Shown here in pieces: positions 40,545 through 42,746 of a DNA stretch of 64,000 bases (position 1 is its first letter; each line of letters opens with the position of its first letter). The stretch is from Bryobacteraceae bacterium (GTDB taxonomy: Bacteria; Acidobacteriota; Terriglobia; Bryobacterales; Bryobacteraceae). A model generated the notes under the pieces. That model did no database searches, was not told where the DNA came from, and saw nothing but the letters and a program-made list of their open reading frames with translations. The DNA is taken from NCBI GenBank assembly GCA_023384675.1, contig JAHDVK010000005.1, positions 62,001-126,000 on the forward strand, in the 5' to 3' direction. Position numbers and translations under genes: made by a program.

Positions 40545-41678
40545 GTGCCGCCCTTACCACAACCCCTGCCCTCCGACCGGCTGTCGCGAAAGGAGGTTCT
40601 CGAGCAGGTTGAAAAGCTCCCCGATCACGAATTGATCTTTGCGCTGCTGCACGCGACGCAGTCGCGGACCGTAGTGGTCAATGCCGAGCGGCAGATCCTG
40701 CTGGCGAACGAGGCGTTCGGCTGGGCGGCACGGGCGGCTGGCAACCCGCACTATGAAGGGATGCGCGTGGGCGAAGCGCTGGGGTGCGTCCACCGGGAGG
40801 CGGCGCGGGGCGGCTGCGGGACCAGTCCGCACTGTCTGGACTGCGGTTTGGCGCAGGCGACGGCGGCGGGGCTGGCCGGACAAGTCACCAAGAAGCTCTG
40901 TTTGATGGAACGCGACATTGATTCGCGGGTAGAGTGCGAAGAGTCGATGGTTTCGGTGCGTCCCCTGGAGGAATCGGGTCCGGGCAAACTGGTTTGCAGC
41001 CTGGCTGACATCAGCGACGCTCAACGGCGCAAGGTGATCGAGACTGCCCTGGCACAGGAGATGCGGGAGTCTGCGGAGAACCTTCGGAAACTGGCGGAGG
41101 CGGCAGTGGCGGTGCATACCGAGGAAGGTGACAGCTGGCGGAGCGCGCGCGCGGTGGCCGATGCGGCGATCCTGCTGAGCCGGCGGCTGGAAGCACAAAA
41201 CGTGCTGCTGGCAGCCGAAAAGGGCGAATTGGGGGTCCAGTTCCGCGAGGTGGATTCCGCCGGATTGGTTCGGGCGACTGCACGCAAGCTGGAGTCCGAA
41301 CCGGTGGCGTCGCGGCGCCGGATTCTGTGCGCGGGCGAACCGGGCATGAAGCTCAGCACCGACCCTGCGCTGCTGCGGCGGGCCCTCGAACCCCTGCTGA
41401 CCAACGCGCTCGAAGCCACGCCCGATGGCGGCACGGTGAAGGTGTCGGTCCAGCCGCTCACCAAGGGCGTGCGTATCGAAATCTGGAACGAGGGCGTGAT
41501 GCCCGATAGCGTCCAGCGACAGGTCTTCAAGCGCTCCTTCACCACGAAGCAGAAAGGCACGGGGCTGGGCGCCTACTCGGCGAAGCTGTATGTGGAGCGC
41601 TATCTCAGCGGGCGCGTGGGATTCCGTTCGTCGAACGGCGAGGGCACCACGTTCTGGGTTGATCTGACGGGCGAATAA
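40545..41678 (+). CDS. Sensor-kinase-like protein with Cys-rich PAS region and no phospho-acceptor His
   Basis: A 377-residue cytosolic protein. Residues 25-155 form a PAS-like domain with cysteines 81, 91, 97 and 100 (CVHREAARGGCGTSPHCLDC), a spacing seen in redox or metal-binding PAS domains. Residues 158-220 replace the dimerisation/His domain, but the position where an H-box His is expected reads ALAQEMRESAENLRKLAE, without His. The ATPase domain is present (LLTNALEATPDGG N-box; KGTGLGAYSAKL G2), though the G1 box is reduced to WNEGVM. GTG start at 40545. It ends directly against the convergent selenoprotein gene. Probably a degenerate or allosteric kinase. Confidence 0.8.
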   Translation: MPPLPQPLPSDRLSRKEVLEQVEKLPDHELIFALLHATQSRTVVVNAERQILLANEAFGWAARAAGNPHYEGMRVGEALGCVHREAARGGCGTSPHCLDCGLAQATAAGLAGQVTKKLCLMERDIDSRVECEESMVSVRPLEESGPGKLVCSLADISDAQRRKVIETALAQEMRESAENLRKLAEAAVAVHTEEGDSWRSARAVADAAILLSRRLEAQNVLLAAEKGELGVQFREVDSAGLVRATARKLESEPVASRRRILCAGEPGMKLSTDPALLRRALEPLLTNALEATPDGGTVKVSVQPLTKGVRIEIWNEGVMPDSVQRQVFKRSFTTKQKGTGLGAYSAKLYVERYLSGRVGFRSSNGEGTTFWVDLTGE

Positions 41679-42746
41679 CTACTTGCGCCGCAGGGTCTCG
41701 GGCACGCGCACGCCGTCGTGTTCTTCCAGGCGGAAGCGCCACTCGACGGGCAGCGATACCGGTGTGTAACAGACCTTGTCGTCGCAAGCCTGATAGCGGA
41801 ACTCGCCGCGCAGCCGGACGGCGCCGTCCGTTCCGGCCAGTGACTGCAAAGCCTTCTGCTGGGGAAACGTCACATCGCGATAAACGCGGAACCTGCCTTC
41901 GAAGACCGGCACGGTCTCCTGAATCGCGGGCAGGTGCAGGGTCTTTGAGGCCGGGTACGCGGCCTCGGTGGACTTCGCGCCATCGGGCAATTGCATGGTC
42001 CACGAGACCGGAATGTAGCCCGCCACGCCGGGTGCGTACACGTGCATTTTTGCTGGTAGGTCCACTTCGAGGACAAGCCGGACGCGGAAGCCGCCCCGCG
42101 CCGCTGTGTCGCTGGCCCCGTGGCGCAGCCTCAGATGCCTGGTCCGGGTGTCGGCCCAACCCGAGGAGTCCGGCGGCGAGGTCTCGATCAGGATCGTGCC
42201 GGCGGAGTAGCGCTCGCGGTAGTTCTCCTCCAGGTACTTCCGCTGAACCTTGGCATCGGCCCCGATGACGAACGTGCCGGGCCAGGGAACGCCATGGAAC
42301 GGGGTGCCGGCAGGCACGGTTTCATTCAGCAGGCCGAACTCCCGGATCACGCGGGACTCGGGGTCGCTCAGCAGCGGGACGGTGACGCCGCGGCGCCGCG
42401 CGAAAGCGCTCAGAACCTCGACGCTGTCGTAGCTGAGGGCCGCGACGTTCAATCCCTGCTTTGCAAAGGCCGCTTTTTGCTCTTCCAACTCGACCAGTTG
42501 GGTTTTGCACCACGGTCACCAATCGGCGGAACGGTAGATGACAATCACCAGACCGTTCGGGCCCTTGAGCGAGTCGAAGGTTTGCGCGCGGCCGTGCTGG
42601 TCGCGCGCGGTGAAAGCGGGAATGGGCTGGCCAACGGCCGGACCGGGGTCCCGGGGCATCTGCGCGGAGAGCATGGCCGGGACCAGAGAAACCCAAAAGG
42701 CGGCACGGGGAAATATCATCCCCCAAGGATTCGTTCGCAGCCCCAT
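41679..42746 (-). CDS. Selenoprotein: exported Sec-containing redoxin fused to a DsbD N-terminal-like domain
   Basis: Reading through one in-frame TGA (42518-42516) gives a 355-residue protein. Signal peptide (about 1-28), AhpC/TSA-type redoxin domain (about 35-180) in which the TGA is residue 77 in IYRSADW-U-PWCKTQLVELEEQ, exactly where the redox Cys of such redoxins sits, with Cys80 completing UxxC. The rest of the fold continues in frame (LSDPESRVIREFGLL, GTFVIGADAKVQRKYLEE). Residues ~195-345 resemble the DsbD alpha domain, with Cys321/Cys326 in YQACDDKVCYTPVSLPVEW. A hairpin follows the TGA by 14 nt. ATG 42746 chosen; 42719 possible. Likely an envelope peroxidase/thiol reductase. If TGA were a stop, the catalytic site would be lost. 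Confidence 0.85.
42485..42518 (-). promoter_or_regulatory. Sec UGA codon and candidate bacterial SECIS hairpin (redoxin gene)
   Basis: Minus strand: TGA (42518-42516), 14 nt, then CCAACT-GGTCG-AGTTGG (42501-42485), a perfect 6 bp stem with a 5 nt loop starting GGUC. E. coli fdhF SECIS has the loop GGUCU at a comparable distance from its UGA, and the loop guanines are what SelB contacts. Confidence 0.8.

Follow-up and report, generated by a model that had tools for sequence, protein, structure and literature searches.

The question at this locus is whether a TGA codon inside a gene for a putatively exported redoxin ends translation or is read as selenocysteine (Sec) and, in the latter case, what the Sec residue does. 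The window that we analysed is a stretch of 64,000 nucleotides from a Bryobacteraceae genome of the phylum Acidobacteriota (G000; 97.4% complete). The plus strand reads TCA at positions 42516–42518, and hence the minus strand reads TGA. If the codon is given an amino acid, a single reading frame runs along the minus strand from an ATG at 42719 or 42746 to a TAG at 41681–41679, with no other stop in between (Table 1). The translation around the codon runs ...VIYRSADW-U-PWCKTQLVELEEQ..., and the second half of the redoxin protein ends ...FRYQACDDKVCYTPVSLPVEW.... The original prediction numbered the TGA as residue 77; this holds from ATG 42746, whereas counting from ATG 42719 gives residue 68, with no clear ribosome-binding site to decide between the two starts. 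The product is predicted from its sequence to be exported. On the plus strand, a histidine kinase gene (40545–41678) converges with the redoxin gene, and the stop codons of the two abut directly at 41678/41679. A search of a plasmid collection gave no matches.

Table 1 Features of the redoxin locus (window positions; residue numbers refer to protein P0001 unless a start is named)
Feature	Position	Strand	Remarks
Predicted selenoprotein gene, putatively exported Sec redoxin fused to DsbD-alpha	41679..42719	−	346 aa with TGA as Sec; alternative ATG 42746
TGA, predicted selenocysteine	42516..42518	−	U75; residue 68 from ATG 42719
Signal-peptide-like N-terminus MIFPRAAFWVSLVPAMLSAQ	42660..42719	−	By eye from the translation
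AhpC-TSA/Redoxin domain (PF00578, PF08534), thioredoxin fold	42201..42635	−	Pfam, residues 36–180
U-P-W-C active site (UxxC)	42507..42518	−	Both redox residues invariant in the family
bSECIS-type hairpin CCAACUGGUCGAGUUGG	42485..42501	−	6-bp stem, 5-nt loop, GU at nucleotides 25–26 from the T of TGA
DsbD_N (DsbD-alpha) domain, PF11412	41760..42083	−	Pfam, residues 220–327
CDDKVC, invariant CxxxxC pair of the DsbD-alpha domain	41769..41786	−	C319, C324

To place the codon in context, we searched 101 relatives, roughly 300 and 400 genomes at the levels of class and phylum, respectively, and a species-level genome collection, and found the redoxin gene across the Acidobacteriota. Removal of duplicates from the fetched loci left 112 distinct homologues, which at the TGA column carry TGA in 98 cases and Cys in 13, and have lost the site in one (L155). 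The frame continues seamlessly through the codon, and homologues align across it with Cys or Sec, both as originally predicted. Because so many distinct homologues share TGA, and the others have Cys apart from the one deletion, the presence of TGA in this column is not due to chance. None of the homologues shows a further Sec elsewhere in the alignment. In the exceptional locus (G036:C34), which is from a selB-positive genome, the whole U/CxxC site is gone (YQSAEPEPSEI) and the remaining frame is kept.

The form of the codon follows the presence of selB. A hand tally restricted to genomes with completeness of 90% or more and contamination of no more than 5% finds selB in 58 of 60 genomes with the TGA form compared with 3 of 10 with the Cys form (Fisher P = 3 × 10−6, uncorrected for kinship); the seven Cys-form genomes that lack selB come from only four genera. 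The two TGA-form genomes without a selB match (G288 and G253) are well complete, and both are in hundreds of contigs. A phylogenetic tree of 109 proteins, constructed with the columns from UGA through the hairpin left out, requires at least 7 to 8 exchanges between Sec and Cys. One genome, G073, has two copies of the gene (L026 and L145; G073:C70 and G073:C330), one in the Cys form and one in the TGA form; a TAG also interrupts the frame of the TGA copy, which may be decaying.

The source genome contains the means to decode Sec: a tRNA-Sec (C41:28820, 74.7 bits; called SeC with anticodon TCA by ARAGORN), SelA (C34, 493 bits), SelB (C13, 358 bits) and SelD (C42, 351 bits). The search for selA, selB, selC and selD that had been proposed as a check on the prediction therefore returned all four. 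The selD gene (C42:114913–115809, locus L019) has an in-frame TGA of its own at the active-site Sec/Cys position (KAAGUASKLG), and SelD is, judging by this codon, probably a selenoprotein itself.

Downstream of the TGA we identified a hairpin of the bacterial SECIS (bSECIS) type. Counting the T of TGA as 1, nucleotides 18–23 pair with 29–34 around a loop at 24–28. A published bSECIS model specifies a loop of 3–9 nt, a stem of 4–16 bp and a G within the first two loop positions, and further limits the loop to 16–37 nt from the UGA and the minimum free energy to at most −7.5 kcal/mol (PMC13188914). The window hairpin conforms to this model, with the loop GGUCG (5 nt), a 6-bp stem and a distance of 20 nt from the UGA; its energy is −6.4 kcal/mol bare and −7.9 kcal/mol with flanks. 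When the single window sequence is folded with the UGA included, an alternative structure wins (z = −0.28), and the energy of one sequence is thus no proof by itself. An Rfam scan of the window returned no family at gathering score.

Comparison across homologues took the place of single-sequence folding as the test of the hairpin. The loop GU at positions 25–26 occurs in all 94 Sec sequences tested. Mean stem pairing in the Sec forms is 5.88 of 6 pairs, compared with 4.28 (s.d. 0.10; maximum 4.69 in 2000 draws) under a synonymous-codon null, a difference of 16 s.d., and all six pairs form in 88% of Sec sequences versus 10% of synonymous redraws. Cys homologues are at the null level (3.92 pairs versus 3.99), which indicates that there is no selection for the hairpin among them. 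Pair 21–31 joins the wobble position of a Gln codon to the initial base of a Leu codon, and each of these bases can change synonymously; the CAA–TTR/CAG–CTN counts are 27/1/1/65, and the two positions match in 92 of 94 sequences (P = 2.8 × 10−21). On the tree built without these columns, this pair switched between A–U and G–C about 16 times. Considering only well-supported branches, 8–10 of 10 independent pairs co-changed and none did the opposite (sign test P = 0.002–0.008). The synonymous null and the recurrent co-changes on the tree together answer the objections that coding constraint or shared ancestry created the pattern.

Homologues, decoding machinery and hairpin together uphold the predicted recoding, and we regard it as practically certain that the TGA, with its SECIS element, encodes Sec. 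A genuine stop, whether in a pseudogene, through a sequencing error or at the end of a short exported peptide, would accord with the standard code, which splits the frame, and with other genes of the window that end at TGA. It would leave without explanation the same TGA in 98 independent homologues, the purifying selection on both the downstream protein and the synonymous RNA hairpin, and the whole Sec machinery in the genome, and we consider it extremely improbable; a pseudogene or a sequencing error in particular is ruled out by the conserved codon and the conserved downstream frame. Equally improbable is the reading of TGA as Trp or Cys through a changed code or general read-through. Such decoding would likewise leave the frame open, but the column has Cys and never Trp in homologues, other genes in the window do stop at TGA, the Cys homologues lack the hairpin and the occurrence of the TGA form follows that of selB.

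What the Sec residue does is indicated by its surroundings. The redoxin domain scores 100.7 bits for PF00578 and 62.5 bits for PF08534, both over the cut-off, AlphaFold2 models are confident (pLDDT 92), and the matches of the domain are peroxiredoxins and ResA. Nearly all Sec homologues share the motif DWUP[WFY]C[KR], and Sec occupies the thioredoxin-type first position of the pair. Profile alignment with AhpE places C78 at the peroxidatic Cys, U75 at the peroxiredoxin Thr position and P154 at the peroxiredoxin Arg position. The canonical PxxxT/SxxC motif with its catalytic Arg is therefore absent, and the Pro that starts the motif is also missing. The absence of the Thr and Arg, combined with a Sec that lies off the peroxidatic position, points to a UxxC thiol-disulfide oxidoreductase and not to a canonical peroxiredoxin. 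The prediction that Sec replaces the redox Cys of an AhpC/TSA-like CxxC is thus correct as regards fold and UxxC motif; it fails as regards the peroxidatic catalytic position, to which the second cysteine corresponds. We consider it likely, from the sequence, that the protein has UxxC oxidoreductase activity, and very probable that Sec insertion and this oxidoreductase reading hold jointly, setting aside the electron relay discussed below.

The C-terminal half of the protein went unseen in the original prediction and is, by Pfam and modelled fold, a DsbD-alpha domain. PF11412 matches the window protein with 32.7 bits (cut-off 25) and occurs in 29 of 30 family members scanned. Structure comparison of the isolated second domain gave Z = 12.9 for ScsB-N and 10.2–11.6 for ten nDsbD entries, compared with at most 9.3 for other folds; a profile of the domain compared with PDB sequences found nothing, and the relationship rests on Pfam and structure. 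The columns of U75, C78, C319 and C324 are Sec or Cys in all 109 of 109 proteins. The genome also encodes a membrane DsbD (C44:105865–107010), and two further DsbD_N domains outside DsbD occur at C10:83–430 and C41:296355–296711 (L178 and L180) in short frames of 220 and 177 aa.

We propose that SelB brings Sec-tRNA to the UGA, guided by a bSECIS with its apical loop starting 20 nt downstream, and that the product, once exported, would carry Sec-x-x-Cys in its redoxin domain and Cys-x4-Cys in its DsbD-alpha domain. Such a protein may work in the cell envelope as a reductase of the thiol-disulfide or possibly the peroxide type, with disulfides favoured over peroxides as substrate. A Sec–Cys selenenylsulfide would arise in each cycle; the fused DsbD-alpha pair would reduce it and could in turn be recharged by the membrane DsbD of the genome. 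In DsbD, the N-terminal domain uses its Cys pair to hand electrons on to partners with the thioredoxin fold, and the structural matches of the second domain include the complexes 1z5y, 1vrs and 1jzd. We give even chances to a relay within one chain, from DsbD through the DsbD-alpha pair and Sec–Cys to substrate.

The DsbD-alpha domain could instead be an adaptor through which the Sec-containing redoxin docks onto DsbD or onto substrates, with no electrons passing to the Sec site of the same chain. The redoxin and DsbD-alpha domains are connected by sequence only, as this would allow, but 109 of 109 proteins conserve the DsbD-alpha Cys pair together with the UxxC residues, and we treat an adaptor as a possibility of lower standing than the relay. 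Still less probable is an enzyme that is mainly a peroxidase, in which the inserted Sec would attack hydroperoxides, Cys78 would resolve and the DsbD-alpha pair would recycle. Sec is common in peroxidases, and peroxiredoxins are nearest to the redoxin domain in fold and profile; against this, the peroxide-activating Thr and Arg are absent, and the peroxidatic position falls on Cys78 and not on Sec. We therefore retain the UxxC oxidoreductase as the preferred reading of the redoxin domain.

Several catalogued selenoproteins resemble the window protein. Prx-like thiol:disulfide oxidoreductases (PF00578, UxxC/UxxU) and a 'Redoxin family protein' (PF08534, UxxC) are listed in PMC13188914 and PMC9312934, and 'Prx-like 3' (PF08534, UxxC) was reported from marine metagenomes in the Global Ocean Sampling selenoproteome (PMC2398784). 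These UxxC redoxins likewise have an AhpC/TSA-redoxin domain with Sec first in UxxC; compared by description, the lists name the redoxin domain only, whereas the window protein adds DsbD-alpha with one CxxxxC pair. PrxU (TxxU; NF040737) belongs to the same domain superfamily, but the window protein scores 19.6 bits against its cut-off of 270, and Sec in PrxU is second and peroxidatic, whereas in the window protein it is first and the peroxiredoxin Thr and Arg are missing. The second-best NCBIfam match over the redoxin domain is the SelL-related redox protein NF040769 (45.5 bits, below the cut-off of 120), a model of 173 positions, too short to include a DsbD-alpha domain as well; the window protein stays below the cut-off of every NCBIfam model. 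With the alpha domains of DsbD and ScsB the protein shares the fold (Z = 12.9 for ScsB-N, 10–12 for nDsbD), a PF11412 score over the cut-off and the Cys pair; it differs in fusing the alpha domain to a Sec redoxin, without the membrane part of DsbD. TsoB (NF045694, UxxxxU), a rhodanese/DsbD fusion-like selenoprotein named in PMC13188914, is also predicted to be a selenoprotein and likewise combines a DsbD-like domain with a pair of equal spacing, but its pair is Sec and its partner is a rhodanese, whereas the pair in the window family is always Cys.

In the part of the literature that we covered, we found no paper that describes a redoxin–DsbD-alpha selenoprotein, or this family in Acidobacteriota. 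The fusion and the phylum-wide dominance of Sec look undescribed, with catalogue entries compared by description, and the family may already be catalogued as 'Redoxin family protein' (HEU0032618.1) with its second domain unremarked. On balance, we lean slightly towards an undescribed Acidobacteriota selenoprotein family, an exported Sec redoxin with its own DsbD-alpha electron-input domain, in which Sec predominates and at least 7 exchanges with Cys have occurred, often where selB is lacking. Acidobacteriota are a major soil phylum, for which few selenoproteins are listed in the papers found; three families with four proteins were recorded in 2006 (PMC1794560). The presence of Sec in most family members across the phylum implies a role for selenium in the redox chemistry of the acidobacterial envelope, and it implies that in many genomes of the phylum this gene has been called in two parts or missed. 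The DsbD-alpha fusion offers a testable model for the re-reduction of an exported selenoenzyme, and the repeated Sec/Cys exchanges provide natural pairs for probing the benefit of Sec.

Neighbouring genes are shared at the clade level only; because none is conserved across the family, no operon partner can be named. In two related genomes, selB lies within about 1–3 kb of the redoxin gene (G168, C20:90362–93286; G265, C6:29522–35183), which may be chance. A distant second group of relatives, with about 32–33% identity over residues 30–331, has exactly one in-frame TGA in each member; it includes G064:C1:1702058–1702990, G065:C6:320047–320979 and many genomes of family f59.
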